From a virus: DNA of 64,000 nucleotides. The stretch is from IMG/VR virus record IMGVR_UViG_3300011445_000018, positions 1-64,000 of that record. One strand, 5' to 3'. The notes under the pieces were generated by a model. That model was given only the letters and a program-made list of their open reading frames with translations. It was not told where the DNA came from and did no database searches. Position numbers and translations under genes: made by a program. Shown here in pieces: positions 991 to 47,567 of the stretch (its first letter is position 1; the number at the start of each line of letters is the position of its first letter).

Positions 991-1111
991 ACTTGACCAC
1001 GGCTACCATTTCCTCTCCACATAATCATTCAATGACCATTTTATTTTCATGGCTCAAGGATAGGATCATAGTCAAGTCGGTCAGTGAATAATTGACCAGA
1101 AACAGCGTATA
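957..1111. repeat. 41-bp imperfect inverted repeat
   Basis: The left arm is 957-997 and the right arm 1071-1111. They match in 38 of 41 positions (core TCAGTGAATAATTG and its complement) around a 73-bp spacer. Each arm carries a promoter core pointing outwards, so the repeat looks like one promoter/operator duplicated in opposite orientation. It could also extrude as a cruciform. Confidence 0.85.
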
Positions 1112-1113
1112 CT
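1078..1113 (+). promoter_or_regulatory. Putative rightward promoter for the primase operon
   Basis: The plus strand shows TTGACC, then AGAAACAGCG, then TATACT (1108-1113) as the -10 candidate. The spacing from TTGACC is only 10 bp, so a phage-modified or alternative sigma factor may be needed. TTTGTTATGTTAA follows at 1137-1149 and the primase ATG at 1165. Confidence 0.5.
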
Positions 1114-1164
1114 AGTTCACCATACCCTATCATTATTTTGTTATGTTAAATGGAATGATTAACA

Positions 1165-3852
1165 ATGTTGAAATCAGAGGCAATAAAGAATCTTTTGCTA
1201 AAACTAACACATTCGGACCTATCAAAATTATATAATATTAACATGGAAGTGCAGGTTAATGTCGCACAAGATAATGGCTCACGTACCAGCGGAGAATATC
1301 AAGGCGTTCATTGGCACGGCTGGACAGATGGTAATGAAACATGGAAAAGCTTTCGCATACCATATAACGCAGCAACTAAGCCAGAGTACATTGATAAAGA
1401 TATAAGATTCAATTTAGCCTTACATGCGGAAGGTATAGGCTTAACGGGTTGGGATTGGTATAATAAACGATCCATGTGGGTAGCATTTGATTTCGATAGT
1501 ATTATCAGTCACAAGCAAGGTCTAACAACTCAGGAATTATTAATAATACAAGATCAGGCTGCAAAAGTACCATACTTAACAGTTCGCAAATCAACTAGTG
1601 GTAACGGTATACATTTCTATATCTTCTTCGATGAGATTATTTATACTGCTAATCATAACGAACATCAAGCCCTCGCACGAGCGGTCTTAGGACAATTGGC
1701 CGCTGAAACAGGTTACGACTTCAGTAACAGTGTAGACGTTTGCGGCGGCAACATGTGGATATGGCATCGTAAGATGTCCATTGAAAACGGTGGATTAAAA
1801 TTAATAAAACAAGGTGACATGTTACAGAAGGTGCCCATCAATTGGCGGGATCATATTAAAGTTATCACGGGTGCCAGACGTAAGAACATGCCTCAAGTAA
1901 TTGAGGAACAGAGCGATGCTGATAAAGCGTTCATGGAATTGGTCGGCCAATATGTACATGAACCATTGGACGATGCACACAAACAATTAATTGATTATCT
2001 TAAACAAACTGATGCTGTTTGGTGGTGGGATCAAGATAATTACATGCTTGTAACGCATACTGTTCACTTGAAAGATGCACATGAGGCCCTTAACTTTCGC
2101 GGTATTTTTAACACTGCTAGCAGTCATACTTCCCCTCACAATTGCTTTGCATTTCCTCTTCGCCGTGGGGGGTGGGTTGTACGACGTTTTACGCGAGGGG
2201 TTAAGGAACATGAATCTTGGGATCAAGATAGTGGTTCTGGGTGGACTCGTACTTTCTTTAACACTGATCCTACTCTTGCTACTGCTAGTAGGAACTTTTC
2301 GGGCGTAGAACATCCATCGGGCGGATATGTCTTTCGCATGTCAGAGAACGCTCAAAAGGCTTCATTAGCACTAGGTGCGGATTTAGCGTTACCACATTCA
2401 GCTTTATCAAGACCATCTAAATTAAAAACTCATAAAGATGGCAGATTAATTGTTGAAATTGAAAAGGATTCACTTGATGCTCCTAAAGACTTCATGGGCT
2501 GGTTAATGGATGGCAATAAATGGAAACGTATTTTTAACACTTATGTTGATAACAAATTAGATCAACCAGAGCAACATAGTTACGATGATCTCGTTAGACA
2601 TATCACTACAGAGGACGCTATTGATTGTGGTTGGGTTGTTAAGAGTGATGGAGTATGGGTCGAAGAACCATTAACACATGTGAAATTAGCATTGCGTTCG
2701 CTTGGTCTAGCTGATAGGGATACAAGTGCTGTCCTCGGTGATAATATATTCAAACGATGGACTATTGTTAACAAACCCTTCCAGCTTGAATATCCTGGTG
2801 ATCGTCAATGGAATAGAAACGCTTGTCAATTTAATTACATACCTAGTAAAGAAGATATTTTACATTATCCCACATGGAAGAAAATATTAACACATGTAGG
2901 AGAATCGTTAACCCCAGCACTAATTGAGTTCCCTTGGGCTAAAAATAACGGAATATTAACAGGGTATGATTATCTCAAATGCTGGATCGCTAGCGTCTTT
3001 CAACATCCACATGAACCATTACCTTATCTCTTTCTCTTCGGTCCAGAGAGCAGCGGTAAAAGTATTTTTCACGAAGCACTTAGTTTGTTAATTACTCAAG
3101 ATGGCTACGCGGACGGTAAAACATCGCTCCAGTCACAGCAAACATTTAACGGGGAATTGAAAGGCGCGATACTATGCTTCATCGAGGAGATAAATTTATC
3201 ACAGCGTAATAGCGTTGCATACACGCGTATCAAGGAATGGGTAACAGGTACGATGTTAAATGTACACCCTAAAGGGGGTACGCCCTATCTTGTTAAAAAT
3301 AGCACTCATTGGATACAGTGTGGTAATGATATTACTTTTTGTCCTATTTTCCCAGGTGATACGCGCATTACAGTTATACATGTTAGAGCTATACCAAAAG
3401 AGCATTGGGAAAACAAGAACGATCTCTTTGTTAAATTAAGAAAAGAAGCACCCGATTTCCTAGGTGAGGTATTAAAGTTAGAATTACCAAAATCCTCAGA
3501 TCGCTTGAATATTCCTGTTATTAATACCAGTGAGAAGATTTTAATACAAAAGCAGAATCAGAATGCTTTAGAGGAATTCCTCTCCGAACGATGTTTCCAT
3601 GCACCTGGATATAAGATCAAATTCTCTGACTTCTATGAACAATTCACTGAAACCTTTCTCGATCCAACAGAAGTATCTAGTTGGAACAAGCGTATGATTG
3701 GACGATCGTTACAATTACCATTTGTTAAAGGAAGGAATCCACCCGATGGTCAATACTACATAGGAAATATTTCGTTTGAAGAAGTCAAAGAAGTGCGTTT
3801 ACCTTTTACTGTTATTGATAACAAACTAGTTGCTAATGAGGATGCAAAATGA
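1165..3852 (+). CDS. Primase-helicase (AEP-like primase + SF3 helicase)
   Basis: An 895-residue replication protein. The N-terminal half looks like an archaeo-eukaryotic-type primase: a DFD acidic motif at about 109-111 and a GNGIH strand motif at about 146-150 are the candidate catalytic positions. The C-terminal part is a superfamily 3 helicase: Walker A GPESSGKS at about 626-633, Walker B with EE at about 674-675, and the motif C-like GND at about 720-722. It would unwind DNA and lay primers at the phage fork; no DNA polymerase is encoded in this window. The ATG follows GGAATGATTAACA, a modest Shine-Dalgarno. It is first in a plus-strand operon; the next gene overlaps its stop by 4 bp. Confidence 0.88.
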   Translation: MLKSEAIKNLLLKLTHSDLSKLYNINMEVQVNVAQDNGSRTSGEYQGVHWHGWTDGNETWKSFRIPYNAATKPEYIDKDIRFNLALHAEGIGLTGWDWYNKRSMWVAFDFDSIISHKQGLTTQELLIIQDQAAKVPYLTVRKSTSGNGIHFYIFFDEIIYTANHNEHQALARAVLGQLAAETGYDFSNSVDVCGGNMWIWHRKMSIENGGLKLIKQGDMLQKVPINWRDHIKVITGARRKNMPQVIEEQSDADKAFMELVGQYVHEPLDDAHKQLIDYLKQTDAVWWWDQDNYMLVTHTVHLKDAHEALNFRGIFNTASSHTSPHNCFAFPLRRGGWVVRRFTRGVKEHESWDQDSGSGWTRTFFNTDPTLATASRNFSGVEHPSGGYVFRMSENAQKASLALGADLALPHSALSRPSKLKTHKDGRLIVEIEKDSLDAPKDFMGWLMDGNKWKRIFNTYVDNKLDQPEQHSYDDLVRHITTEDAIDCGWVVKSDGVWVEEPLTHVKLALRSLGLADRDTSAVLGDNIFKRWTIVNKPFQLEYPGDRQWNRNACQFNYIPSKEDILHYPTWKKILTHVGESLTPALIEFPWAKNNGILTGYDYLKCWIASVFQHPHEPLPYLFLFGPESSGKSIFHEALSLLITQDGYADGKTSLQSQQTFNGELKGAILCFIEEINLSQRNSVAYTRIKEWVTGTMLNVHPKGGTPYLVKNSTHWIQCGNDITFCPIFPGDTRITVIHVRAIPKEHWENKNDLFVKLRKEAPDFLGEVLKLELPKSSDRLNIPVINTSEKILIQKQNQNALEEFLSERCFHAPGYKIKFSDFYEQFTETFLDPTEVSSWNKRMIGRSLQLPFVKGRNPPDGQYYIGNISFEEVKEVRLPFTVIDNKLVANEDAK

Positions 3853-4067
3853 TTCGTGTTAGTAAAAATTATTGGGTGAATATAGATCAAATGATGGATG
3901 TATGCGTAGATGAAAAGGAAATGGTTATAACTACAGTTGTGCAAGAATGTTTTATTGTTGAAGAAGAATATCTGGATTCTGTTTGTGCGGCTCTTAACAT
4001 TAACCCTTTGGATGTAAGGAAACTACTGAATGCGAATGATAAGCAGAATGAGGGTCCGTTGCTTTAG
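3849..4067 (+). CDS. Small hypothetical protein
   Basis: 72 residues, starting at an ATGA overlap with the primase stop, so translation is probably coupled. The N-terminal half reads as beta-strands (SKNYWVNIDQMMDVCVDEK) with an acidic helical C-terminal part. I do not recognise a family. Its position suggests a role in early replication or nucleotide metabolism, but that is inference only. Confidence 0.6.
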   Translation: MIRVSKNYWVNIDQMMDVCVDEKEMVITTVVQECFIVEEEYLDSVCAALNINPLDVRKLLNANDKQNEGPLL

Positions 4068-4095
4068 TATACCATTAGGATTGCAAACCCTAATA

Positions 4096-4224
4096 ATGAG
4101 TCTAACAATTAAAGGAATTGATAAATACGAAATAGTGACATATGTTCGTGATTGGTTGGATTGTCCACAGAACGATGCAATACGTGTTGTAGAAAGTGTT
4201 ATAGGAGTATGTTTTAATGATTAA
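4096..4224 (+). CDS. Small hypothetical protein
   Basis: 42 residues from the ATG at 4096. An in-frame ATG at 4030 would give 64 residues but overlaps the previous gene, and neither start has a strong ribosome site. The C-terminal segment (NDAIRVVESVIGVCF) is a predicted amphipathic helix. The stop overlaps the ATG of the kinase gene at 4217. Function unknown. Confidence 0.45.
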   Translation: MSLTIKGIDKYEIVTYVRDWLDCPQNDAIRVVESVIGVCFND

Positions 4225-4765
4225 ACAGGTATATTATGTTATAGGTATCACTTGTGCTGGCAAGGACTTTTTCATTGAAAGTGCTTTGAGAAAATACCCT
4301 GATGTTTTCGGTGCTTGTCAAGTAGGTAAAGAGTTTCGTAAAAGATATCCACCAGAATATTTTCAGGGACAAGGGGCACCTGAACACACAGAACGTGAAG
4401 CGATGGAGATTTTCAAGGGACAAATGACCGCGGCAGATGATGCTGGTAAAAAAATTGTCCTAGTGTCTGGTCAACCACGTAGACCTAGTCAAGTAGAATT
4501 ATGTTTAAATTATAAATGGGGTGAAGTAATTTGGGTACATGCGTCAGATGAGATAATATTATTAAGAATACGGGATAGATTTAGAGATGACCCAGCAGGT
4601 TATAATTTAGCAATACAACGTGTTATAAATGATAAAATTATGTATTATGATGTTTTATATGAACTAAATAAACGCAGCATGAAAATACTTACGTTTGATA
4701 CACAAAATCACTCTATTGATAATTTAATTTTCCTTTTAAAGGACAAACATGAAACACCTAAATAG
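4217..4765 (+). CDS. P-loop nucleotide kinase-like protein
   Basis: 182 residues. A Walker A loop GITCAGKDF is at about residues 10-18, close to the GxxxxGKD form of deoxynucleoside monophosphate kinases. A strand ending VLVSG (about 80-84) could hold the second P-loop strand, and RIRDRFRDDP is arginine-rich like a LID segment. The likely role is phosphorylation of nucleoside monophosphates for phage DNA synthesis, which fits a genome with thyX and pyrE. Substrate is not predictable from sequence. A DNA or RNA end kinase is the main alternative. Confidence 0.65.
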   Translation: MIKQVYYVIGITCAGKDFFIESALRKYPDVFGACQVGKEFRKRYPPEYFQGQGAPEHTEREAMEIFKGQMTAADDAGKKIVLVSGQPRRPSQVELCLNYKWGEVIWVHASDEIILLRIRDRFRDDPAGYNLAIQRVINDKIMYYDVLYELNKRSMKILTFDTQNHSIDNLIFLLKDKHETPK

Positions 4766-5348
4766 TAATATTCTCTGTGCAGTAGCAATTCGTACGACCG
4801 GCCCTGTACCAGGGAAACATAAATTGTTAGAAATAGCAATCATACCACTTACAGGAGATTGTAAAGTCAGTAGAGAACATATGCTTTTTAATATTCTTTT
4901 TAAGCCTGATGAATTGGATGTCAGGCGAGCGGAGTATAATTTGGATAATGATTTGGTTTTAAAATGTTTGGCCAATGGCTTTGAGTACAACGATGGGGCC
5001 GAACTATTTGAAAAATGGTTAAAGAAACTTGAACTGCGATTCTTTAAGAAAATAACAGTTTTATGCCACAATTGGGCATTCAAGAGACCATTTCTTGTAG
5101 ATTGGTTGCAACCTGCTGGCTTCGACTTAGCTTTCAATGAGGATTATCGCGACCCACAAGCTTGTGGATTATTTGTCAATGATCGCTTTGATGTTAGAAA
5201 TGAGCCATATCCATTTGCTAAAGTCAGGCTTAGTTATATGTGTGCAACGCACAAATTGGAATACGCCTCAAGACTTCCAACAGTCATTGATGAATGCGAC
5301 GCATGTATAAAGCTTTACCGTTCCCTTATACATACACAGAACTTTTAA
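4749..5348 (+). CDS. DEDD exonuclease-fold protein lacking catalytic residues
   Basis: 199 residues that follow the layout of RNase T/DEDDh-type phage exonucleases (strand ILCAV, then a TTG turn, then HNWAF, then a C-terminal helix ending YRSL). The catalytic positions are altered: the expected D-x-E-T-T-G reads AIRTTG at about 14-19, the acidic residue after HNWAF is K, and the C-terminal H-D-A-L-x-D box is replaced around LPTVIDECDA. It is therefore probably a non-catalytic binding or scaffold version rather than an active 3'-5' exonuclease. It overlaps the kinase gene by 17 bp. Its stop overlaps the end of the convergent minus-strand gene, with no terminator hairpin between them. Confidence 0.6.
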   Translation: MKHLNSNILCAVAIRTTGPVPGKHKLLEIAIIPLTGDCKVSREHMLFNILFKPDELDVRRAEYNLDNDLVLKCLANGFEYNDGAELFEKWLKKLELRFFKKITVLCHNWAFKRPFLVDWLQPAGFDLAFNEDYRDPQACGLFVNDRFDVRNEPYPFAKVRLSYMCATHKLEYASRLPTVIDECDACIKLYRSLIHTQNF

Positions 5349-6427
5349 CATGGGTTGTGCCAACTTGGTGGTGGCTCATGACATATACAATCTTCACAAG
5401 GTGGAAAATTACTAGTAACTGGATCGCTAAGTGAAAAACTTTTATTTATTTCCCAAGATGGAAAAGTAATATCGTCCTGTGTAAAAGGCTTATTAGGACT
5501 ATTTGGACTTAGGTCTGTAAAATCAGCCCCAGTTGGTTGTGCAGGAGCAATCAAATCTGCTCCAGCAGACCAGGAGCTTTTATTCATATCAGATATTATA
5601 GGAAATATTCCAGGTGACCCGCTATAGCAAGCAAAGCCTACTTTGCTTAATACTTGTGGAGTACCTATACTGTCCTCTTGTATAGGATCATCTGGAGGGC
5701 CTGGGGTAACTTGTTTACGGTATGATTGAAAACGTGCAGTACGTGAAACAAGAAAATATTCCTTCATTTCATAGCCAGGACAATATGGATGATTAAAAAC
5801 TGGTGGGACAATAAATGCACAATCACCAGTGGCTTGTGGTGTAAAAATTGCTATTGTTAATGAACTACTAAAAGTCCACTCTTCAACAATAATATGTAAT
5901 GTTGTTATGGGTGTATATTTTATAAAATTTTTAGCAATTGTGCTTGATACAGTATAAGTTGGCCTCATACCATCTAATTTAAATCTTGATGGCGCACCGG
6001 ATTCTGCTCCTGAAGCAGTAATACCAATATTAAAATTAGGACTGTACCTAGCACCACAGTTACAATTACAACCTACTGTTGGAAAAATCGCTTTTAAAGG
6101 CATCCTTAAACAATTACCCTTGACCATAAACAATTTGCCATCTTTTTCACAAATTTCTACAGCTATAATTTCATCATCATCGAATTCATGTGGTTGAAAA
6201 GTTTCTTCCGCGTTTATCACTCCGATGAAAGTATCACGGCGATTACCAAAAGAGCTATCATTCACTATTGGAAGCCAAGAACGTTCGGCCCAGCTACCAT
6301 CTATAATGCCAGCTGGGGTCATACGTAAATGGTAATCATTTGGCCCATTACGTTTTAAATAGACCAAACGAAACGGATAACCCGCCTTTATAAATTCACA
6401 AACTTGAGACAGTGTACTGGGTGTCAT
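5345..6427 (-). CDS. Virion-associated protein, distal end of structural operon
   Basis: 360 residues from the ATG at 6427, which overlaps the previous stop as TAATG; an upstream in-frame ATG at 6457 is possible. The sequence is beta-rich with a CNCNCG cluster near the middle and a cysteine-rich, proline-rich tail (CEDCICHEPPPSW) that could bind metal. I do not recognise a family. It directly follows the tail hub gene, so it may be a tail-tip or fibre component. Confidence 0.6.
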   Translation of the reverse strand: MTPSTLSQVCEFIKAGYPFRLVYLKRNGPNDYHLRMTPAGIIDGSWAERSWLPIVNDSSFGNRRDTFIGVINAEETFQPHEFDDDEIIAVEICEKDGKLFMVKGNCLRMPLKAIFPTVGCNCNCGARYSPNFNIGITASGAESGAPSRFKLDGMRPTYTVSSTIAKNFIKYTPITTLHIIVEEWTFSSSLTIAIFTPQATGDCAFIVPPVFNHPYCPGYEMKEYFLVSRTARFQSYRKQVTPGPPDDPIQEDSIGTPQVLSKVGFACYSGSPGIFPIISDMNKSSWSAGADLIAPAQPTGADFTDLSPNSPNKPFTQDDITFPSWEINKSFSLSDPVTSNFPPCEDCICHEPPPSWHNPC

Positions 6428-9036
6428 TAGAGCCACACTGGATTCTGCATTGTCCACTCGAACTTATCACCATTTATTCCAGTTTGTGCAACACCGTTTA
6501 TTTTTAATGTATTATTCTTAGCAACTAAGCACCATGTATCCGGCGGTATTTCCTCGAATTCTGCCAATTGCAATTGTTTAACTATGCGTCTCAAAGGTAC
6601 ATCACTCAAACTCTTAGTATAGACATCTACATTATACAATTTCTCAGATGCTTGATTAACACTAATAATTTTACCAGGGAACACGGCCCCCACGAAACCA
6701 TCATCTGGTTGCTGGGGTTGAGCTAGATTAACACCGTAGTTATCATAACCATAAGTGTATTTCGGCTCCTCACCTAGACCGAACGTGCGAACAAAGAACT
6801 GTGGTTCAGGTTTCCTATCATCTAGATCACTTGGTGTTAATTCGCCGTAATCTCGACGCTGGTCCCTGATACCTTGGTCAATATAATTTTGAATAGTTAT
6901 CATCTTTATGAGGGCTTTTTCCTCATCCGTTAAAGCTATCGAGCCTTCAACATCGGCACCTGGACCTGCTCCACCAGCATAATCTTCTATTAAATCTTTG
7001 TTAGTAGGAAAGAATTTATCAGTTAGAACGCGGCTCGGCCAACCGAAATCATAAGGTGTCATTTCACCGAATCGGACCGGGACCCAACATGATAATTTTA
7101 ACAGATTATCATTTGTTTGATATGTCACATCTGTAATGAGGCATTTGATCGGGTGATCGGAAAGGTAGGTCTCTAGGAAATCGAACCTAATTGTATCAAA
7201 TACCTCAAGAAAAATCTTTGAGGGATATGTTTCAAAAGTGAAACGTTTCCATACATTTGCTAAACGTATTAACCAGAATGTAGCGGACTTGACAACTAAT
7301 TGTGACATATTATAAATATAAAAATCGATCTCGCGTTCACGTACCCCGTACCGTTTGATATTATAACGTAGAACTATTTTATTTGGATCATCGATCGCTA
7401 GATTACTTTTCCATGTAGCAGTGAGCTTTGTTACTAGTTCCTCTGTTTGAGTGGTCTCCAGAACAGCGGATCCAGCATCAATATCACTCTCTGTTATTGT
7501 ATCTACTTCATCCACTTCATTAGAGAGATATTTAATATAAAAGACATTATTATTAAGCCATATGGCACAGCGTGCTTGGAACGCTATTTCCTCCAACGTT
7601 GTTAAAATGTTCTTTCTACCCGGCATCATGAAATGCGATGGATAGTTATCAATTTGACCCTTAACTTGTAAAAAGCTTATTGGGTCATAGGTTAAATCAG
7701 TATACGTATTAATCAACCATATCATTATATCGATCGTATTAGGTCCAATCGAACTTTGCAATGTAACATAAATATCATCGCTCAGGCTTTCATCGCGACT
7801 GCTAGGTGGCTTACTGAATTCAATGAAAACAAATTTGTAAGGACCACTATCCACTTTCTTTATAGTATACCAAGCACTAGGTAATGTTACTAATACCTGA
7901 CCTTTTTCCGTTTCGCGGAACGCTTGAACAGAGAGCACTGTAGAATCTATAATATTACAAACATACATTATTGTCTTATTAGACAATAATGTTATAGTTG
8001 TTCCGGCCTCAACAAATGTGAAACCAAATGGCTCATTGAAATTATCATCGAACTCCGTTAATATCGTACTATTAATAGTGAACGTGTTACCATTTAATAC
8101 ACCGCCTAGTTCGACATCACCTATTCTAACTGTTATCGGTACCCCTTGTGGGAAGCCTGTTGTATCAAGAATGTTAATTGTACCATTACTATTTGACTCT
8201 TGGTCTAGTTCGATTTCCCTTAACCCAGCTAGATCACCTTCTCCTCTAGAGATCTCCGCCCCTATTTGATTCAGATAACCTTGAATTTGTAAAGCTAATG
8301 CTGCTGCTTGTTCACGTATTTCTTCTGTATCGCCAAAATCAGCAGTGAACTCCGCTTGAAGCAAAGCTAAAGCATAGATATTAAATAAAGCACTTAAATC
8401 TTCTACTTGATGCCGACCTTTAATAATAGCTTTACTTAGTGTCGGATCTTTAACACCTAGATCCTCAGCCGTTTGGGTTGTTGGTACATCTTGTAATCTC
8501 ACAGCTGGAACATTCTGCACTTTGCCAAAAACCAACGGCCAAGGAACACCGACCAAGTTATCGGGTAAAAAGGGGAAATTTCCCTCCTCAGGTGAGAAGC
8601 CCACTTCCTTATCAGCGAGCTTACTTATGACCGCAAAAGATAGCGTTCGATCACCTTCGCTCCAGCGTATTGGACTTGATATTTCGCCCTCGAATAATTT
8701 AAGTCGTTCAGTGAGCGGTAGACCAGAGAACCATTGATACAGAATCACCTTTTTACCATGAATATCTATTCTGTTAATTATATCTTTTAGTTCACCATCT
8801 GTATCATCTAACGTTACATTTATAGTTTGTGTTTGACTCTCACTATCTAATTTCACTGTTGCTTCTAAGTCAGATAGCTCTAATATTGTACCAAAGACAT
8901 TTAGTTCACCAGGAACATCTTTATCACCATAAAGCAGAAACGGACCGTTAGTAACCCATTGAATCTCTAAGAGATTCACTGGTTCAATACCTAAAGTATT
9001 GATAATATTAGCAACGGCTGGCGTAAGTATTTTCAT
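6427..9036 (-). CDS. Tail hub/tip protein
   Basis: 869 residues. The first 150 residues (LLEIQW..., FEGEISSPIRW..., LSFAVISKL) resemble the N-terminal domain of phage tail hub proteins of the DUF2163/baseplate hub class. A helical segment around 240-285 and more beta domains follow. The C-terminal 100 residues (VFPGKIISVNQASEKLYNV...) resemble an OB-like domain. It lies downstream of the tape measure, as expected for a tip or baseplate hub protein, and starts at an ATGA overlap with the holin-like gene. Confidence 0.65.
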   Translation of the reverse strand: MKILTPAVANIINTLGIEPVNLLEIQWVTNGPFLLYGDKDVPGELNVFGTILELSDLEATVKLDSESQTQTINVTLDDTDGELKDIINRIDIHGKKVILYQWFSGLPLTERLKLFEGEISSPIRWSEGDRTLSFAVISKLADKEVGFSPEEGNFPFLPDNLVGVPWPLVFGKVQNVPAVRLQDVPTTQTAEDLGVKDPTLSKAIIKGRHQVEDLSALFNIYALALLQAEFTADFGDTEEIREQAAALALQIQGYLNQIGAEISRGEGDLAGLREIELDQESNSNGTINILDTTGFPQGVPITVRIGDVELGGVLNGNTFTINSTILTEFDDNFNEPFGFTFVEAGTTITLLSNKTIMYVCNIIDSTVLSVQAFRETEKGQVLVTLPSAWYTIKKVDSGPYKFVFIEFSKPPSSRDESLSDDIYVTLQSSIGPNTIDIMIWLINTYTDLTYDPISFLQVKGQIDNYPSHFMMPGRKNILTTLEEIAFQARCAIWLNNNVFYIKYLSNEVDEVDTITESDIDAGSAVLETTQTEELVTKLTATWKSNLAIDDPNKIVLRYNIKRYGVREREIDFYIYNMSQLVVKSATFWLIRLANVWKRFTFETYPSKIFLEVFDTIRFDFLETYLSDHPIKCLITDVTYQTNDNLLKLSCWVPVRFGEMTPYDFGWPSRVLTDKFFPTNKDLIEDYAGGAGPGADVEGSIALTDEEKALIKMITIQNYIDQGIRDQRRDYGELTPSDLDDRKPEPQFFVRTFGLGEEPKYTYGYDNYGVNLAQPQQPDDGFVGAVFPGKIISVNQASEKLYNVDVYTKSLSDVPLRRIVKQLQLAEFEEIPPDTWCLVAKNNTLKINGVAQTGINGDKFEWTMQNPVWL

Positions 9037-40786: not shown

Positions 40787-41008
40787 CTGAAAAATTTTAA
40801 AATTTTTCAGTTAGAAATATGTTTCATGACATCTTGCTAAATTTATCATAGACCAGGAACGCTCGTACGCTCGGACCATGAATTATGATACGTGAACGCT
40901 CGGGCCATAAAATTTCCATATTTCTCGCACAGAATAGGGGGTCCAGCGTTCAGTGAACAGATGTCACTTGGTCGACGGTTGTACACCCCTCCCCTGGGTA
41001 GTGGTGAT

Positions 41009-41088
41009 TAGTTACTAGGCAGCAACTGCCTAGTAACTAGGCACAGGCAACCGATGCTAATTTAACAGGCAGCCTAGTAACTAGGCAA
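41009..41088. repeat. Three-copy palindromic site cluster
   Basis: TGCCTAGTAACTAGGCA (41027-41043) is a perfect 8+1+8 palindrome. An inverted half copy precedes it (41009-41021) and forms a 13-bp hairpin with it, and GCCTAGTAACTAGGC recurs at 41074-41088. This spacing suits binding by a dimeric regulator, replication initiator or ParB-like protein. Confidence 0.75.
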
Positions 41089-41161
41089 CGATTGCCTATG
41101 CTACCACACTAGACAAACCATGCTACATTAACAGGCATGGCATGCAGTGCCCCACGATGGG

Positions 41162-41234
41162 CCGTGTTGCGTGATACGCTGAACCATGTGCATTGGACGT
41201 GATACGTGGTAACACGCAACACGGGTCACGCTAG
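41162..41234. repeat. Long hairpin 1
   Basis: Perfect 12-bp arms CCGTGTTGCGTG (41162-41173) and its complement (41213-41224) enclose 39 bp. The right side continues into an 18-bp sequence CAACACGGGTCACGCTAG (41217-41234) that is repeated exactly after hairpin 2. Confidence 0.75.
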
Positions 41235-41254
41235 GTACTCTACAACCTATTTCG

Positions 41255-41328
41255 CCCGTGTTGCATGATCGATGGTCAAGCCATACTGGCATACGTCGCA
41301 ATCGATCATGCAACACGGGTCACGCTAG
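41255..41328. repeat. Long hairpin 2
   Basis: Perfect 19-bp arms at 41255-41273 and 41301-41319 (CCCGTGTTGCATGATCGAT and its complement) enclose 27 bp, which itself has a GCCA-TAC-TGGC mini-hairpin. The same CAACACGGGTCACGCTAG sequence follows at 41311-41328. The two hairpins are clearly related, differing in arm length and loop. Confidence 0.8.
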
Positions 41329-41346
41329 AAGCCTTCCTGAGGCAAC

Positions 41347-41409
41347 ATGAACGATGAACGATGAACGATGAACGATGAACGATGAACGATGAACGATGAA
41401 CGATGAACG
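41347..41409. repeat. Nine tandem copies of ATGAACG
   Basis: 63 bp of exact heptamer repeats. The unit (CGTTCAT on the other strand) is part of the AGCGTTCATG word that is scattered through the right arm. A 7-bp period is not a coding pattern. Confidence 0.95.
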
Positions 41410-41435
41410 ATCAACCTGATCAATTATAGTACAGC

Positions 41436-41464: not shown

Positions 41465-42010
41465 ATCGACTATGAAACCAAAGCGATCAAGGTGGTCAAA
41501 TGTAGTACAAGGGGTATTTATACCCCCTAAACCCACTATATGTGACGTAAACCAAAACGGACTCAGTGTTTGCGACAGGGGTAAAAATAAAATCGCAAAC
41601 GGCATGCCTCTTGCTACTACTACCATTTCGGCTGACTGACCCGACCTTGACTCAGTCGCGTGACGCCCATAGCGTGCACGCGGGGACCGAAAACATTTTG
41701 TTTTTGGTCGTCAGGATTCACGGGTCGGCGGTCAATAAGACATAGAAAGGGACAAACGAACATGCGGGGCTGAGCCAGCCTTAGGCCGATGACAAAGTGA
41801 ATCACTAATAACGACCCATGGTAACATGGGGCGGGCGGTTTCAATCCGCAAACTTTCAATCGCTATACGGCTATGCATCATGCGATGCTAAGTGGAATCG
41901 TAAGATAGTCAATCGATTCGTTAGCGGGCGAATTATAGAAACGTTGGGAACACGGTTTGCCACAAGCAATTGTCGTGAAGTGCAAACTATCTATCAACGT
42001 CTGAACGATA

Positions 42011-42397
42011 GGTTAGTGTGGACCTAGTTGCCCCATAAGGGGACACTATGAACACACAGACCATTATCCAACTTAACAAACTACCTTCGTTGCAATCTCT
42101 TGACAAGCCAGCACTGGCCATGACAGGGGAGCAAACACGGCAACGGAGTTACCTGGAATCAGTCGCGGATTTGGATGCTACAATTAACAGCATCGAACGT
42201 CGCGTCAAAAGCGAAAAGGTAGCATACGAAAAGGCTACCAATCAACCTTGGAAAACGAGCGATGGCAAATCGCATTTCACGTGCGAACAAGCCATCGACC
42301 ATGCTTACGCGAACAAGTGCAAGTGGGTAAAGTGCACCGGAATCGGTATGATTTGGCACAGTTAACACTTTTCGGGGCAACTAGGCCCATACTAACC
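42011..42397. repeat. 24-nt inverted repeat enclosing the first cassette gene
   Basis: The left arm 42011-42034 (GGTTAGTGTGGACC...) and right arm 42374-42397 pair over 24 positions with one G-U and one A-C. They flank gene 42048-42365 and would close it in a long-range RNA stem. Confidence 0.8.
42048..42365 (+). CDS. Small cassette protein, unknown function
   Basis: 105 residues. Residues about 35-65 are a charged helix (SYLESVADLDATINSIERRV); the C-terminus (FTCEQAIDHAYANKCKWVKC) has two cysteines. A small CCCC-ATAA-GGGG hairpin sits just upstream of the ATG, with GGGGACACT as the possible ribosome site. First gene of the rightward array. No family recognised. Confidence 0.6.
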   Translation: MNTQTIIQLNKLPSLQSLDKPALAMTGEQTRQRSYLESVADLDATINSIERRVKSEKVAYEKATNQPWKTSDGKSHFTCEQAIDHAYANKCKWVKCTGIGMIWHS

Positions 42398-42402
42398 TAT
42401 CA

Positions 42403-42417
42403 GGGGATGGTTGCTTT
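42403..42417 (+). promoter_or_regulatory. Antisense copy of the cassette leader motif
   Basis: GGGGATGGTTGCTTT is the exact complement of AAAGCAACCATCCCC, present at 44235-44249, and pairs with the other leader copies with at most a G-U or an end change. It is the only inverted copy seen. It can pair locally with CCATCCCC at 42451-42458 or with the motif at 42760. Confidence 0.7.
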
Positions 42418-42475
42418 GGCTGTTTTAGCCTGTTAAAATGTCCAAGGGAGCCATCCCCACAAACAAGGAAACCAC

Positions 42476-42682
42476 ATGAACGGTAAATGGTATAAAGGTA
42501 ACAATGCATACTACTTTGTGGACAATGAAAATTATGCCTATCGTGTTTGGGAAAATGGTAACGTTATGGGAATGTCCGAATACGACGCCACTAATCTAAT
42601 ACGCGGATTGTGCACTGAGATACCTTGTCCGGCATTCGGTGCAAGTGCTTTGAAAGATTTACAACGTCTATTGGAGCAATGA
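42476..42682 (+). CDS. Small cassette protein, unknown function
   Basis: 68 residues, with aromatic-rich N-terminus (WYKGNNAYYFVDNENYAYRVWENG), resembling a small beta-sheet domain. AAGGAAACC precedes the ATG. The leader contains the variant GAGCCATCCCC. It overlaps the start of a tiny hydrophobic frame at its stop. Function unknown. Confidence 0.6.
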   Translation: MNGKWYKGNNAYYFVDNENYAYRVWENGNVMGMSEYDATNLIRGLCTEIPCPAFGASALKDLQRLLEQ

Positions 42683-42732
42683 TGACAATCGCAATCCTCC
42701 TCGTGCTTCTAGTCTTGTTACTTCTAGTCTGA
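42682..42732 (+). CDS. Tiny hydrophobic peptide (16 aa)
   Basis: MTIAILLVLLVLLLLV, a single Leu/Val-rich membrane-span-like peptide, starting with GGAG five bases upstream and overlapping the previous gene's stop (TGATG). A GGGGCTTT-TGAT-AAAGCCCC hairpin follows at once. A similar peptide ends the array at 47403. Confidence 0.4.
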   Translation: MTIAILLVLLVLLLLV

Positions 42733-42737
42733 TTTTC

Positions 42738-42774
42738 GGGGCTTTTGATAAAGCCCCATAGCAACCATCCCTAA
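42738..42774 (+). other. Hairpin plus AGCAACCATCCCTAA leader motif
   Basis: An 8-bp hairpin (42738-42757) is followed by the conserved motif at 42760-42774. Here the unit that follows is not a gene but a structured RNA. Confidence 0.7.
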
Positions 42775-42981
42775 TACACGAGTATTGGCTTTGAGTAACA
42801 ATCGGGGCTTGCCACGATTTGTTAACTCTAGCTGATTCAAAGCACACGAACTAATCCAATTAGGTCAATTGATATTGTTAACAACCCTTGCGGCTTAAAG
42901 TGCTATTGAATGGTACGGAAGGACGCAACGTTGCCAACGCGATATGGCTTAGCGTAACGAAGCCAATACTCGTTTGTTAGG
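42770..42981 (+). ncRNA. Structured RNA candidate 1
   Basis: No protein frame fits this ~210-nt stretch. The ends, 42770-42791 and 42960-42981, pair over 22 positions (one G-U, one mismatch). Inside, TAACAATCG pairs with CGATTTGTTA around GGGCTTGCCA, and CAATT-AGGTC-AATTG forms another hairpin. It occupies a cassette position, with the leader motif at both ends. Confidence 0.6.
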
Positions 42982-43013
42982 ATCAACCATCCCCAATTAC
43001 AGGAGCTATTACA

Positions 43014-43313
43014 ATGCTCAAGTTTGTTGACATCGGTCGCAAAGGCTATTTGGTAATTGCCGAAATTAGCCCAGATGACAAGTTATGTCGATCCATTGGC
43101 TTTCTGGACTTAACATCGCCGATCAGACCAATGGCGACCGTTGCCGCCGACTATGTCATGGACACAGTCAATTTGTTAAATGAACGAATTGCCAGATTGC
43201 CGCCGTTCATACAACAAGCCATTGTGCCAATCGTTCGCCCGATCACCGATCCACAATTCGTGCAAGAATGGCACTACATCGAAACCAGCGAGCCATTGTC
43301 CTTGTTAAATTGA
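43014..43313 (+). CDS. Small cassette protein, unknown function
   Basis: 99 residues with a beta-strand N-terminus (KFVDIGRKGYLVIAEI) and helical middle (VNLLNERIARLPPFIQQA). AGGAG lies 10 bp upstream of the ATG, after CAACCATCCCCAA. No family recognised. Confidence 0.65.
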   Translation: MLKFVDIGRKGYLVIAEISPDDKLCRSIGFLDLTSPIRPMATVAADYVMDTVNLLNERIARLPPFIQQAIVPIVRPITDPQFVQEWHYIETSEPLSLLN

Positions 43314-43325
43314 ACAAATGCCCGG

Positions 43326-43380
43326 TCAGCCAGGGGCAATACTGGTTGAAAGCAACCATCCCTAACAGAAAGGACAAATA
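43326..43380 (+). promoter_or_regulatory. Leader unit: hairpin, motif, ribosome site
   Basis: TCAGCCAG and CTGGTTGA (with G-U) form a hairpin, followed by AAGCAACCATCCCTAACAG (43350-43368) and AAAGGA, then the ATG at 43381. This is the clearest form of the leader repeated through the array. Confidence 0.75.
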
Positions 43381-43638
43381 ATGAAAGAGTACGTTGTGCG
43401 TGTTGTTATTCCCGATATTGACAATGACATATTGGGATTGGCAAAACCAATCGATGGAGCATTTCTTGAATGTCTACGCTATGCTGGTATTGTTAAAATT
43501 CACACTTCTGATACTGGCCAAGTATTTGATATTCGTTGCCCAGACGTTGTTAAAATGTCCAAAAATTGGGCAAATGCCAATGCCGACCGCATGAAAAGCT
43601 TTGGCTACAATGCCGTCGCCGCACCAGCCTATGAATGA
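43381..43638 (+). CDS. Small cassette protein, unknown function
   Basis: 85 residues. Begins with a strand (EYVVRVVIPDIDNDILG), then a helix-loop with TSDTGQVFDIRCPD. AAAGGACAAATA precedes the ATG. Composition is normal for a small cytosolic protein. Not recognised. Confidence 0.65.
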   Translation: MKEYVVRVVIPDIDNDILGLAKPIDGAFLECLRYAGIVKIHTSDTGQVFDIRCPDVVKMSKNWANANADRMKSFGYNAVAAPAYE

Positions 43639-43646
43639 TTCCCTCC

Positions 43647-43700
43647 CCGGTATTGTGGGAATTAACAATGCCGGAAGCAACCATCCCTAACAGAAAGGAC
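43647..43700 (+). promoter_or_regulatory. Leader unit: hairpin, motif, ribosome site
   Basis: CCGGTATTGT and ACAATGCCGG form a 10-bp hairpin (one G-U). AAGCAACCATCCCTAACAG follows at 43675-43693, then AAAGGA and the GTG start at 43706. Confidence 0.75.
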
Positions 43701-43705
43701 GAACA

Positions 43706-43930
43706 GTGGACAAAAGTATTCTTGAAGGTAAGTTGTCCGAAATTCGCAGAATTCGTACAGACAGCAAACAAATGTGGCATCTGTTCGCACGATACAAGGA
43801 TTTGGCCAATTTCACATGTACACGCGAGCCACTTGAAGTTTTCGCGGAAGCTAAAATTAACAAATTGGCCGCCGAATTAACTACTTCGGATTTGTGTACA
43901 CTTGTTGAACTACTGACACGTGCAAAGTAA
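43706..43930 (+). CDS. Small cassette protein, GTG start
   Basis: 74 residues from a GTG with AAAGGA 8 bp upstream, at the place the ATG occupies in neighbouring units. Helical and charged (SILEGKLSEIRRIRTDSK). Function unknown. Confidence 0.6.
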   Translation: MDKSILEGKLSEIRRIRTDSKQMWHLFARYKDLANFTCTREPLEVFAEAKINKLAAELTTSDLCTLVELLTRAK

Positions 43931-43935
43931 ATGAC

Positions 43936-43980
43936 CCTTTAACTGGTTGTTAGGATTAACAACCAGAAAGCAACCATCCC
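43936..43980 (+). repeat. 45-bp direct repeat, copy 1 (hairpin and motif)
   Basis: CTGGTTGTTA-GGAT-TAACAACCAG hairpin (43943-43966) plus AAAGCAACCATCCC. Identical over 45 bp to 44203-44247. The two copies bracket gene 43999-44202. Confidence 0.9.
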
Positions 43981-43998
43981 TAACAGAAAGGTCAAACA

Positions 43999-44202
43999 AT
44001 GGTAGTATACTACAAAATAGAATACACCATAACTAATGGTGATTCCGACAAGGAACATCTCTGTCGTAAAATCGTGGGGATACAAACAAGAAAGCAACAT
44101 GAATTATTCAAACTAATTCATGAAATGCTTGAAGAAGAACACGATTGTTTTGAAAAAATCACCAATGTTTACATGGAACCGATTACAATTCATTTGTTAT
44201 AA
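43999..44202 (+). CDS. Small cassette protein, unknown function
   Basis: 67 residues; strand-rich N-terminus (VVYYKIEYTITNGDSDKEHL), helix with KQHELFKLIHEMLEEEHD, and a final strand. AAAGG precedes the ATG. Enclosed by exact 45-bp direct repeats, so deletion or duplication by recombination is easy. Function unknown. Confidence 0.6.
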   Translation: MVVYYKIEYTITNGDSDKEHLCRKIVGIQTRKQHELFKLIHEMLEEEHDCFEKITNVYMEPITIHLL

Positions 44203-44247
44203 CCTTTAACTGGTTGTTAGGATTAACAACCAGAAAGCAACCATCCC
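44203..44247 (+). repeat. 45-bp direct repeat, copy 2 (hairpin and motif)
   Basis: Identical to 43936-43980. It ends AAAGCAACCATCCC and leads into the left stem arm of the ParB-like cassette at 44251. Confidence 0.9.
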
Positions 44248-44250
44248 CAA

Positions 44251-45780
44251 AGCAAGCCCATCGTAATGCCTCCTTGTTAAAAGGGAGAATTTACCATGAG
44301 TTCAGTTGACGAATCTGGAAGCGTGCAACGTCTGAATGTCGAAACAAAGCATGTGGTTTTTCACCCGGACTTCCTAGTCCCCGCGATCAATCCACGTGAT
44401 TTGTCCGACTTGCAAGGCGAAACACTGTACCCCGCGATCGAAGCAACAGGGGGTAAGATCACGACGGCCTTGGTGGTCTGGAAACCGGTCAATGATCAAG
44501 GGGAATTCGACCCCGATCATCCGATCTGGACCAGTGGGAACATTCACGATACCTTGACAGGTAAAGTGTTAGTTATACCACACGGCGAGCGACACAAGTA
44601 TCGCATACTCGTCCAAGGGCACCGTCGGCATTGGTGTGCAAGAAAAGCACTGTCACAACCTGATGTTTGCCCGGCTGAGATGATAAAGAATCTCACCAAA
44701 TTGCCGTGCAATGAAATCACTTGTACTCAGGAAGTGGCCGAGCGTCTTGCTCTGGATTTCGAGACATCGGAACCAATGCACAATTGGAATGTCATCAAGC
44801 TGATTTTCGGCTTCATGATGAAGGACATCAAGTACACCGAGATCGCTTTGTTGATGCCGCGAATGCTGTTCCGTGCTTTGCTCAACGACGGTGAAGCTAA
44901 ATATAACAAGCTTCTCCGCGAGGCAAAGTCCGGTCGCGATCGCGTTGCTGCCATCAAATCGGCTCTCAAGAACCGGCTTGACCAGCATACCTACTCCTGT
45001 TACCTCTTTGGCCCAGCAATGCAGAAGCAATTGCTTTTGTATTGGCGATACGTGAAAAACGAATTGCAGGACATCGGAGATCGCTATCTGCTCGTCATGG
45101 ACATGAAGTACGAATTGGTGCAAAAGCTGCGAACTTTGTACAACGAAGAAGTGAAAGTTCACGGTTGGGCACCAATTACACGAGTGGAAATCGTTGATGC
45201 CAAACCCAACGATTCGCAGAATGTTTCGTACGCTCAGACGCCGGGCAATACCAGTGTCCAAGGACGCTGGTTTGTCATCGAGGGCGGATCAGAGAATTTT
45301 CGGCAAGCTATGCTGAAAAATATGCTGGTCTATGCCAAGCCAGAAGCGGCAGAGGAAGAGAAAAAGCCACCTACTCAACAAGAGCGGAAGGCAATTATCA
45401 ATTCCACTGCCAGTGGCATCGGCAAAGCCTTCTCCAAGTTCTATGATGAAAGTTTCACGGAAGAAACATCAGGCAAATACTTGGATGCTCCACGCCTACG
45501 CGTCCAATGGGAAGAATGGGCGTTGTTTTCTGAATCGACTCAGAAAGCAATGCTCGATTTCGCCGACCAATGCGATCCATTGGTTAAGGAATTGTTGGTT
45601 GCTGCCACAAGCCAAGCGGCTCCGGGGGCAGCGGCAGAACGTGTCAAGACCGCGATTGCCACGTTGAACGAAGCGTTAAAGCCAGTTACAGTTGTGTCGA
45701 AGAAGAAGTAACATTCGGCATTGTGTCGGGTGTTTGTTTAACAAACGTCTTTCGCAAGGGGGCGTTACAATGGGCTTGCT
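44251..45780. repeat. 26-nt inverted repeat enclosing the ParB-like cassette
   Basis: Left arm 44251-44276 (AGCAAGCCCATCGTAATGCC...) and right arm 45755-45780 pair over 26 positions, with two G-U pairs and one C-A. The enclosed gene is over 1.4 kb away end to end. Confidence 0.8.
44296..45711 (+). CDS. Second ParB-like protein
   Basis: 471 residues. The N-terminal 130 residues follow the ParB nuclease-like domain: VPAINPRDLSDL, then TALVVW, then ILVQGHRRHWCARKAL, where GHRR (about 108-111) is the signature box. The rest is helical and ends in a basic tail (PVTVVSKKK). GGGAG lies before the ATG. It is the largest gene in the cassette array and more GC-rich than its neighbours. Possible site-specific DNA binding; no ParA nearby. 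Candidate target: the palindromes at 41009-41088. Confidence 0.7.
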   Translation: MSSVDESGSVQRLNVETKHVVFHPDFLVPAINPRDLSDLQGETLYPAIEATGGKITTALVVWKPVNDQGEFDPDHPIWTSGNIHDTLTGKVLVIPHGERHKYRILVQGHRRHWCARKALSQPDVCPAEMIKNLTKLPCNEITCTQEVAERLALDFETSEPMHNWNVIKLIFGFMMKDIKYTEIALLMPRMLFRALLNDGEAKYNKLLREAKSGRDRVAAIKSALKNRLDQHTYSCYLFGPAMQKQLLLYWRYVKNELQDIGDRYLLVMDMKYELVQKLRTLYNEEVKVHGWAPITRVEIVDAKPNDSQNVSYAQTPGNTSVQGRWFVIEGGSENFRQAMLKNMLVYAKPEAAEEEKKPPTQQERKAIINSTASGIGKAFSKFYDESFTEETSGKYLDAPRLRVQWEEWALFSESTQKAMLDFADQCDPLVKELLVAATSQAAPGAAAERVKTAIATLNEALKPVTVVSKKK

Positions 45781-45800
45781 AACTCTAACAAGGAAAACGT

Positions 45801-46016
45801 ATGTCACCACGTTACTATCGTTTATGTGTCAAACGAAATGGCTACTGGCATGAAGTGGCACGAATCGGTAAATCATTAGCCGTTTCAAGAGACAATGCCA
45901 TATTGTTACTTGGCAGTTGGAACGAATTAGACGCAATTTTCGGCATGGGGAATTGGTCTGTTACTACTGACCTTTCCCTCGACTTTGTTACTTGTGTAAC
46001 ATCTGACATCAATTAA
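45801..46016 (+). CDS. Small cassette protein, unknown function
   Basis: 71 residues. RYYRLCVKRNGYWHEVARIG at the start forms a predicted strand pair. AAGGAAAACGT precedes the ATG. Not recognised. Confidence 0.55.
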   Translation: MSPRYYRLCVKRNGYWHEVARIGKSLAVSRDNAILLLGSWNELDAIFGMGNWSVTTDLSLDFVTCVTSDIN

Positions 46017-46045
46017 CAAAAAGCAACCATCCACTAAACATTATA

Positions 46046-46120
46046 GAGTTGAGTTGCCAGTGCTTATATATAAAATGCGATTCGCGTTTATCGCATATTA
46101 AGTTACTGGCAACTCTACTG
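46046..46120 (+). ncRNA. Structured RNA candidate 2
   Basis: GAGTTGCCAGT (46051-46061) pairs perfectly with ACTGGCAACTC (46105-46115). Inside, AATGCGAT and ATCGCAT form a second stem. The element lies between leader motifs. Confidence 0.55.
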
Positions 46121-46145
46121 TGTGATGTTTGAAAGCAACCATCCT

Positions 46146-46300
46146 AAATGTCACAAAGCTGGGCTGTCAGCTAATGCTGGCCGCACTGCATGATAATGTG
46201 TAGCAAGGCATTCTGATGCCATTCAGATTGCTATGTGGTTTCGACAGCCATAACAGTGTCGCATGTCTAAAGGCCCTGACAGCCTAGCTTTGTTACATTT
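46146..46300 (+). ncRNA. Structured RNA candidate 3 with 25-bp closing stem
   Basis: The ends 46146-46170 and 46276-46300 pair in 24 of 25 positions (one G-U, one C-U). Inside, GTGTAGCAA pairs with TTGCTAT around a GGCA-TTCTGA-TGCC hairpin (46207-46220), and GACAGCC near 46243 offers an alternative partner for the closing strand GGCTGTC. About 155 nt in all. The fold is conserved-looking but matches no RNA family I know. Confidence 0.65.
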
Positions 46301-46328
46301 AACCATCCCCAAAAACAAGGAAACAGTC

Positions 46329-46508
46329 ATGCAAGTCGAAGGCACAATTCGATACAAAGACACGTATCGAGATCTTATCAAAGCCTTAATGGGACATGAA
46401 GATGTTCTGGATAGGCCCATCATCGTGCAAATTGAATTGCCAGGAGGCATAAATTTCATTCTAGATGATGAAGATAACAAAGAGCGTAGAATATTAACGT
46501 TTGAATAA
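46329..46508 (+). CDS. Small cassette protein, unknown function
   Basis: 59 residues from the ATG at 46329, chosen for AAGGAA 6 bp upstream. An in-frame ATG at 46263 lies inside the RNA stem. Sequence QVEGTIRYKDTYRDLIKAL then IIVQIELPGG suggests a small alpha/beta protein. Unknown. Confidence 0.55.
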   Translation: MQVEGTIRYKDTYRDLIKALMGHEDVLDRPIIVQIELPGGINFILDDEDNKERRILTFE

Positions 46509-46512
46509 TTTC

Positions 46513-46552
46513 GCTGGACCTTTGTTAAAAGGTCCAGAAGCAACCATCCCTA
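46513..46552 (+). promoter_or_regulatory. Leader unit: hairpin and motif
   Basis: CTGGACCTTT-GTTA-AAAGGTCCAG forms a 10-bp hairpin, followed by AAGCAACCATCCCTAA at 46538-46553, whose last bases begin the stem arm of the next cassette. Confidence 0.75.
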
Positions 46553-46889
46553 AATATGTGGTACTGGGCCATTAGAAAGAATTAACAATGTTTCACTTCG
46601 ACATTACATGTGAAGATGTTCGCCTAATCGCGAACGAAGTAAGCCCAACAAGTGTAAGAGTGACGTTGTACGACAATCTCAGTGGCAAAAGTCACTTGCT
46701 ACAGTCTGTTAGTTTCTGTGATTTTGAAAAAATGGTCAGTGGTATGATTTGTTGCCACGGTGACGTACCAGCGGAAAGTTACCCAGCTTTAGAAGAAATT
46801 CTGAAAGGTTGCCCGAACGAGTGTCGGCCCATTCCTTAGCGTCTAGCGTTCGCTGGTCCAAAACAATGGCCCAGTACCGTGTATTTAGG
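46549..46889. repeat. 25-nt inverted repeat enclosing a cassette gene
   Basis: Arms 46549-46573 and 46865-46889 pair over all 25 positions with three consecutive G-U pairs and no mismatch. The left arm starts with the CC of CATCCC and the right arm ends TTTAGG, just before the next motif. The enclosed gene is 46588-46839. Confidence 0.85.
46588..46839 (+). CDS. Small cassette protein, unknown function
   Basis: 83 residues with a VRLIANEVSPTSVRVTLYDN strand pair and four cysteines towards the end (CCHG, CPNEC). AGAAAGAATTAACA precedes the ATG. Not recognised. Confidence 0.6.
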   Translation: MFHFDITCEDVRLIANEVSPTSVRVTLYDNLSGKSHLLQSVSFCDFEKMVSGMICCHGDVPAESYPALEEILKGCPNECRPIP

Positions 46890-46913
46890 TGCAATCATCC
46901 CAGGAGACAAATT

Positions 46914-47471: not shown

Positions 47472-47527
47472 CGCTGGTCCAGCGTTCATGTATCAAGGAG
47501 ACAATAGTCTTTGTTAAATGTATCAAA

Positions 47528-47567
47528 ATGGCCGATAATCCGTACATGGATTATCGGCCATTTTTTT
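47528..47567 (+). terminator. Strong intrinsic terminator ending the cassette array
   Basis: ATGGCCGATAATCC (47528-47541), six-base loop, perfect complementary arm (47548-47561), then seven T. A four-A run before the left arm gives a weaker T-run on the minus strand, so it could also end the convergent leftward transcript. Confidence 0.92.

Follow-up and report, generated by a model that had tools for sequence, protein, structure and literature searches.

Closing stems around single cistrons in a phage gene array and a possible gate on their translation

Why should gene after gene of a phage transcript lie between the arms of a long inverted repeat whose sequence is private to that gene? The question is raised by a gene array at 42.0–47.6 kb of IMG/VR virus record IMGVR_UViG_3300011445_000018. 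The window analyzed here is a 64-kb stretch (positions 1 to 64,000) of this 72.9-kb record. The genome is siphophage-like; its tape measure, portal, and terminase genes all lie on the minus strand, and the array is transcribed rightward, away from the terminase. Sequence analysis shows the array to be an operon in which many cistrons are laid out as closed RNA units. A coding unit consists of a left arm (L), a start region (S), an open reading frame (ORF), a stop codon, and a right arm (R), with L and R predicted to form a duplex of 21–34 bp. Statistical comparison shows a second, partial complementarity of L, to S, in about half of the units. Here, we propose that these two pairings may form a translation gate admitting only complete cistrons, like a toehold switch acting in cis, and we hold this proposal to be evenly balanced between right and wrong.

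Closed units in the window and in related phages

The closing stems of the window and the ORFs that they enclose are as follows.

42007–42034, plus strand: left arm of unit 1, pairing with 42374–42401 through 26 Watson–Crick (WC) pairs, 1 G-U pair, and 1 mismatch (−49.4 kcal/mol)
42048–42365, plus strand: ORF of unit 1, 105 amino acids (aa), occupying 0.96 of the loop (loop taken on slightly extended arms)
42374–42401, plus strand: right arm of unit 1; the stem lies within the minimum free energy (MFE) fold of 42007–43000 and of 42007–42401
42770–42791, plus strand: left arm of unit 3, which has no credible ORF; 20 WC pairs, 1 G-U pair, and 1 mismatch with 42960–42981
42960–42981, plus strand: right arm of unit 3; whole-unit MFE −71.5 kcal/mol
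44251–44281, plus strand: left arm of the large unit, which encloses the ParB-like ORF; 26 WC pairs, 3 G-U pairs, and 2 mismatches with 45750–45780 (−46.5 kcal/mol)
44296–45711, plus strand: ParB-like ORF, 471 aa
45750–45780, plus strand: right arm of the large unit; stem score 58.5
46145–46170, plus strand: left arm of a unit without credible ORF; 24 WC pairs, 1 G-U pair, and 1 mismatch with 46276–46301
46276–46301, plus strand: right arm of that unit; whole-unit MFE −67.4 kcal/mol
46549–46573, plus strand: left arm of the 83-aa unit; 22 WC pairs, 3 G-U pairs, and no mismatch with 46865–46889 (−38.1 kcal/mol)
46588–46839, plus strand: ORF of 83 aa, enclosed by 46549–46573/46865–46889
46865–46889, plus strand: right arm of the 83-aa unit

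A preliminary description of this DNA had named five arm pairs, all of which are present at the coordinates it gave. Its tally of eight G-U pairs and four mismatches is exact over the arms as first given; three pairs (42007–42034/42374–42401, 44251–44281/45750–45780, and 46145–46170/46276–46301) are longer than it had them. Its statement that two of the five units are non-coding also stands: 42770–42981 and 46145–46301 contain no credible ORF, and the other three enclose 105, 471, and 83 aa. When ungapped stems with loops of at least 60 nt were ranked by a mismatch-penalizing pairing score, these five were the five top stems in 41.9–47.6 kb (scores 48–62.5; duplex energies −30 to −49 kcal/mol). 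The preliminary description had proposed a comparison with shuffled sequence, which never gave equal stems: over 40 dinucleotide shuffles of 41.9–47.6 kb the best stem scored 42.5 and the mean maximum was 35.6, against 62.5 for unit 1. Each closing stem is contained in the predicted minimum-energy fold of its own unit. RNAduplex applied to the entire 5′ and 3′ flanks did not discriminate, and it was dropped in favor of ungapped stem scoring because it sums many short helices.

Relatives were gathered via the terminase, by a protein search and then two profiles, which yielded contigs with terminases 46–69% identical. The contigs are metagenomic and derive from uncultivated phages. The layout seen in the window, built from arms of unrelated sequence, is found again in at least 14 of these related phages, likewise upstream of the terminase, and the 14 contigs with coding units are not fully independent. 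In a blind scan that scored G-U and A-C alike, the array side of the terminase (461 kb) yielded 56 long-range stems, compared with 3 for the structural side (1,006 kb). Short-loop repeats of ~90 nt with promoter-like cores (L008, L009, 40655 in the window, and others) were left out of the unit set. The blind scan gave zero stems in T7, lambda, 50 kb of T4, Vibrio phage K404, and FP_Epona. It gave one stem in SPO1 and seven weak stems in mycobacteriophage TM4; the latter are provisionally attributed to its high G+C. In an ORF-wise test, which set the 5′ flank of an ORF against its own 3′ flank or that of another gene, scores of at least 42 were reached by 26 of 624 matched pairs compared with 9 of 2,340 swapped pairs. 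At the loci of 41–42% identical terminases in metagenome-assembled genomes (MAGs) of Planctomycetota, Pontiellaceae, and Acetothermia, no convincing closing stems were found. One 444-kb Planctomycetota MAG contig (L184) carries a terminase 42% identical to the group, possibly within a prophage, and may give a clue to the host.

In 29 stems from 14 contigs, a single ORF takes up most of the loop. The arms measure 21–34 nt, mostly 24–29 nt; the left arm ends a median of 16 nt before the start codon, with the Shine–Dalgarno (SD) sequence inside this spacer, and the right arm begins a median of 12 nt past the stop codon. Stem borders at these two distances fall just outside the ribosome footprint. 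The arms share no common consensus, each repeat being private to its unit. In several phages the units tile with 0–6 nt between them, as in L050 (array-strand positions 6454–6920, 6921–7139, and 7140–8649). The closed-unit architecture of the phage cistrons is a solid conclusion at the level of sequence. Some closed units hold no ORF or a single ORF of ~28 codons. Small closed units with an ORF of 28–29 codons and a sequence resembling a ribosome-binding site (RBS) lie at array-strand positions 6970–7059 of L050, 8300–8386 of L053, and 6382–6468 of L016; these ORFs possibly encode microproteins.

In most arrays the product of the large unit is a ParB-like protein, and these proteins are homologous by blastp, tblastn, and alignment. 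The assignment draws on a ParB_N match in the homologue from L073 (E value 1.5e-4, below the Pfam curated cut-off). About a dozen phages have the gene closed, each by a different stem; it is closed in the window and in L011, L049, L050, L053, L063, L083, and L162, and the enclosed proteins measure 322–471 aa. In L073 and L118 outer stems surround the large gene. L111 and L159 have large closed ORFs of comparable length, whose membership in the ParB-like group is weak or putative, and the corresponding closed unit of L087 encodes a 291-aa protein that is a candidate member only. The arms around these homologous genes cannot be aligned with one another (mean left-arm alignment score 11.2 versus 9.9 for shuffles), save those of L050 and L053. 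Where the gene stands in another context (L085, L094, L134, and L167), it is not closed. A profile scan with the ParB-like proteins detected no additional contigs, and a direct search with the 471-aa ORF of the window found no close relatives. The large protein of G009/L016 was not counted as ParB-like; it has no convincing blastp match to that of the window and a weak match to that of L118.

Complementarity of the left arm to the start site

Many left arms have a 3′ portion that is complementary not only to the right arm but also to the start region just downstream. Matched L:S partners gained −7.1 kcal/mol compared with −3.8 kcal/mol for swapped partners, a strength that 0 of 20,000 permutations reached (z = −7.4). 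The excess persisted without the GGCC-rich L087 (z = −6.2). In 14 of 29 units the L:S energy fell in the lowest decile of the swapped values (p = 2e-7), whereas the open ORFs of the same phages showed no such excess (−3.96). Two units of the window illustrate the alternative fold.

42030–42042, plus strand: alternative local hairpin of unit 1, with CCCC at 42031–42034 pairing with GGGG at 42039–42042 of the RBS when the 5′ leader is folded alone
44270–44287, plus strand: alternative local hairpin of the large unit (CTCCTT/AGGGAG), formed between the SD region and the 3′ portion of the left arm

Comparable pairings occur in the relatives, namely TACCCT/AGGGTA in L049 and more than 10 pairs in L113 and L162. 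The predicted accessibility of RBS and start codon in the large unit at 44251 is 0.25 with the arm and 0.60 without it; the mean over units rises from 0.39 with L to 0.45 when L is shuffled (p = 0.012) and to 0.53 when L is taken away. The L:R duplex (−36 to −58 kcal/mol) is far stronger than the L:S pairing (0 to −17 kcal/mol).

Many units encode two exclusive states, an early and weak one in which L covers S and a late and strong one in which R uncovers it. A translation gate appears to be the most economical reading. During transcription of the gene, L:S would be the sole pairing available, and the start site would be hidden or weakened. Once the polymerase has passed the stop codon, R would emerge and take L by strand displacement, leaving S single-stranded, and translation would then begin on a complete cistron with its ends tied. 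The long duplexes may also be RNase III targets or shield the ends. Extended to the whole operon, the gate would amount to a quality control of RNA that is independent of sequence, with a bistable lock on each cistron and translation only after full transcription has closed the stem. This wider proposal is tentative, and we place it slightly short of an even chance.

Several observations weigh against a gate. About one-third of the units, 46549 of the window among them, have little or no L:S pairing, and the mean predicted occlusion of RBS and start codon is modest. The accessibility values come from equilibrium folding, which is blind to kinetics and ribosomes. Moreover, some closed units seemingly contain no ORF, so that a translation gate is not the whole story.

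A rival reading, suggested alongside protection in the preliminary description, is RNase III–type processing, in which the stems of 21–34 bp would be cut to turn the long transcript into separate messages in the manner of the pre-16S and pre-23S stalks of rRNA operons, the complementarity to the RBS being incidental or a side benefit. RNase III needs about two helical turns, which is near the arm length, and the arms cluster at 24–29 bp. The spacing of 0–6 nt between units in most tiled arrays and the presence of stems on ORF-less units fit as well. Processing leaves unexplained both the complementarity of L to the start site of its unit and the position of the stem borders just outside the ribosome footprints. 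We consider it unlikely, if a serious candidate. Because of the L:S pairing and the position of the stem ends outside the ribosome, control of translation is at least as likely as processing; the preliminary description had noted neither feature.

A lower probability attaches to a closed loop that protects or recycles the message without gating, in which the tied ends would shield it from exonucleases and the stop codon beside the start codon would let ribosomes be reused. The geometry is suitable, since stop and start codons flank one helix (12 nt from stop to R and 16 nt from L to start), and nothing else in a unit is as stable as its stem, which lies within the MFE fold. Such a loop does not require L:S complementarity, and a short 3′ hairpin, as found at other genes of the window, could suffice for protection. 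Processing and protection both fit the closing stem, yet neither predicts the L:S pairing that the translation gate would use.

Pairing in RNA and alternatives at the DNA level

The idea that RNA-level pairing closes individual cistrons, put forward in the preliminary description, is supported by the asymmetry of G-U and A-C, by compensatory changes, and by the recurrence with unrelated arms. Read on the coding strand, the array-side stems together contain 80 G-U and 31 A-C; for the coding units alone the figures are 43 and 14 (p = 1.5e-4). The excess of G-U indicates pairing in RNA because the decay of a DNA repeat gives G-T and A-C equally, whereas a paired transcript accepts G-U alone of the two. 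A check for compensatory changes in relatives, as the preliminary description had suggested, was made on the closest pair, L050 and L053 (protein 61% identical). Of 76 aligned base pairs in three orthologous stems, 45 are the same, 19 have changed on both sides and are still paired, 5 have changed on one side with pairing kept, and 7 are broken. Neither outcome that the preliminary description had named as refuting, equally long arms in shuffled sequence or loss of pairing without compensation, was observed. Whole phage operons are made of closed units whose pairing was kept while the sequence turned over completely.

Inverted repeats acting in DNA, as ends of mobile cassettes or as recombination or replication elements, are accordingly a very improbable explanation. 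The units do resemble cassettes, and a few stems are perfect inverted repeats of 24–25 bp (L063, L083, and L111). However, the 43:14 ratio in the coding units is not expected from strand-neutral decay, the repeats are private to units and their arms positioned by start and stop codons, orthologs carry compensatory changes, and no recombinase was noticed inside the units. Readings as integron attC sites or transposon ends were dropped because of the G-U/A-C asymmetry and the privacy of the arms. Chance or an assembly artefact is refuted: tandem and inverted repeats at 41.0–41.4 kb can mislead assembly, but the top five stems lie above all shuffles and the layout, with conserved spacing, is found in at least 14 contigs. 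In L083, the region of closed units at array-strand positions 1001–5000 also contains 17 copies of a repeated TACCAGTAC.

Known systems and other features of the array

Bacterial genes are usually translated during ongoing transcription, and pairing of the 5′ and 3′ ends of bacterial mRNA is known from isolated cases, few in number, in which it shuts off translation of one gene. The nearest anatomical analogue of the phage units is the stalk of pre-16S and pre-23S rRNA, a duplex of ~20–30 bp with a gene-sized loop around successive units of one transcript. The phage arms of 21–34 nt reach the ~20 bp or more of an RNase III stalk, but their loops are protein-coding cistrons with their own RBS. 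The nearest functional analogue is the engineered quality-control toehold switch of Yang et al. 2021 (Nat Chem Biol; reference 89 of PMC11602170), in which a 5′ hairpin reportedly hides the RBS and start codon. The trigger is said to bind upstream of the RBS and free it by strand displacement, the full-length design having the trigger at the 3′ end of the message. An upstream strand complementary to both the RBS region and the trigger is likewise found in the phage units, clearly in about half of them. The phage layout is natural and is repeated gene after gene with unrelated sequences; unlike in the engineered switch, L:S is weak in some units, and the gating function is predicted only.

Among natural mRNAs, the type I toxin messages hok and aapA3 form local hairpins that act during transcription, in aapA3 by directly occluding the SD sequence, and that give way to a long-distance 5′–3′ duplex once the mRNA is full length (PMC6733600). 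That closed full-length form holds the SD sequence and is inert until 3′ trimming activates it (PMC6733600). In contrast, the phage closing stem lies upstream of the SD sequence and leaves it free, L ending a median of 16 nt before the start codon. Moreover, the toxin genes are solitary and the phage operons have many closed genes, which include ParB-like proteins of 322–471 aa rather than small hydrophobic toxins. In icaR of Staphylococcus aureus, the 3′ untranslated region covers the SD sequence through a short UCCCCUG motif and represses translation (PMC3868564). There a single gene is concerned, whereas in the tiled phage arrays the partner of R is L, which lies upstream of the SD sequence, and the pairing extends over 21–34 bp. 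In Cluster K mycobacteriophages, the starts of many small genes are preceded by SAS/ESAS elements, short conserved repeats that in some cases include inverted repeats (PMC3203893). The ESAS repeats have a 17-bp consensus and lie 4–13 bp apart before a single start, and their authors saw little evidence that they pair as RNA (PMC3203893). At most they resemble the linker motif of the window, GCAACCATCC, whose position would fit; the phage arms are unique to their units and span the gene.

A literature search for natural toehold switches and gene-flanking phage stems found none, which is weak evidence, as few subscription papers were covered. We regard the natural architecture as belonging to none of the compared systems and as categorically new, though long-distance pairing and anti-SD hairpins are each known. 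If the gate is real, phages evolved a check for full-length mRNA that synthetic biologists had to design, and translation would be uncoupled from transcription gene by gene. If the stems are processed instead, they would constitute an rRNA-style maturation system for protein genes. On either reading, the architecture is detectable and has been missed by gene finders and current RNA family libraries.

No phage close to the window genome was found in an annotated phage collection, the 105-aa ORF at 42048–42365 had no family match, and an Rfam scan of the window region returned weak chance matches only and no convincing known RNA family. The remaining elements of the array are as follows.

42761–46900, plus strand: linker or start-associated motif GCAACCATCC, with copies at 42761, 42983, 43352, 43677, 43970, 44237, 46023, 46135, 46540, and 46891
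42403–42458, plus strand: leader hairpin of the ORF at 42476–42682 (−33.0 kcal/mol)
46036–46061/46105–46130, plus strand: arms of a long local hairpin between two motif copies, without ORF (−43.6 kcal/mol)

With up to one mismatch allowed, GCAACCATCC has 13 matches in the window compared with 3.5 expected. The preliminary description had left arms tending to begin at the end of this motif, which holds in four of the five units. It also had right arms tending to end before the next motif; a copy or variant follows immediately in three units but not at 45780. Viral contigs searched for the motif GCAACCATCCCTAACAGAAAGG gave zero matches, so the motif is specific to this phage. GCAACCATCC and AGGATAGACCAAC of L049 are different, phage-specific motifs in the same role, each separating the units of its array. 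The 5′ arm of the leader hairpin (42403–42417) is the sole antisense copy of the motif in the window array, at whose head it stands, and any copy farther downstream is a possible pairing partner. L049, with its different motif, also has a lone antisense copy at or near the array head (array-strand positions 5949–5961), which could likewise pair with each later copy.

Directly before the array, 41000–41420 comprises ~400 bases without credible genes and is composed of several repeat types, namely CCTAGTAACTAGGCA, CAACACGGG inverted pairs, and a GAACGAT tandem. The contigs of many relatives break near the equivalent position. Long inverted repeats also occupy intergenic gaps at 48067–48131/48497–48561, 957–997/1071–1111, and 40655–40685/40757–40787. 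Two of the three carry TTTTTTGACA cores, and all are probably paired promoters or operators; L008 and L009 contain similar repeats with short loops. By eye, TTGTTAA or GTTAA looks strikingly common in and between the small genes at 42.4–47.6 kb. At the array end, 47525–47564 forms a perfect 17-bp hairpin followed by a T-run and resembles an intrinsic terminator.

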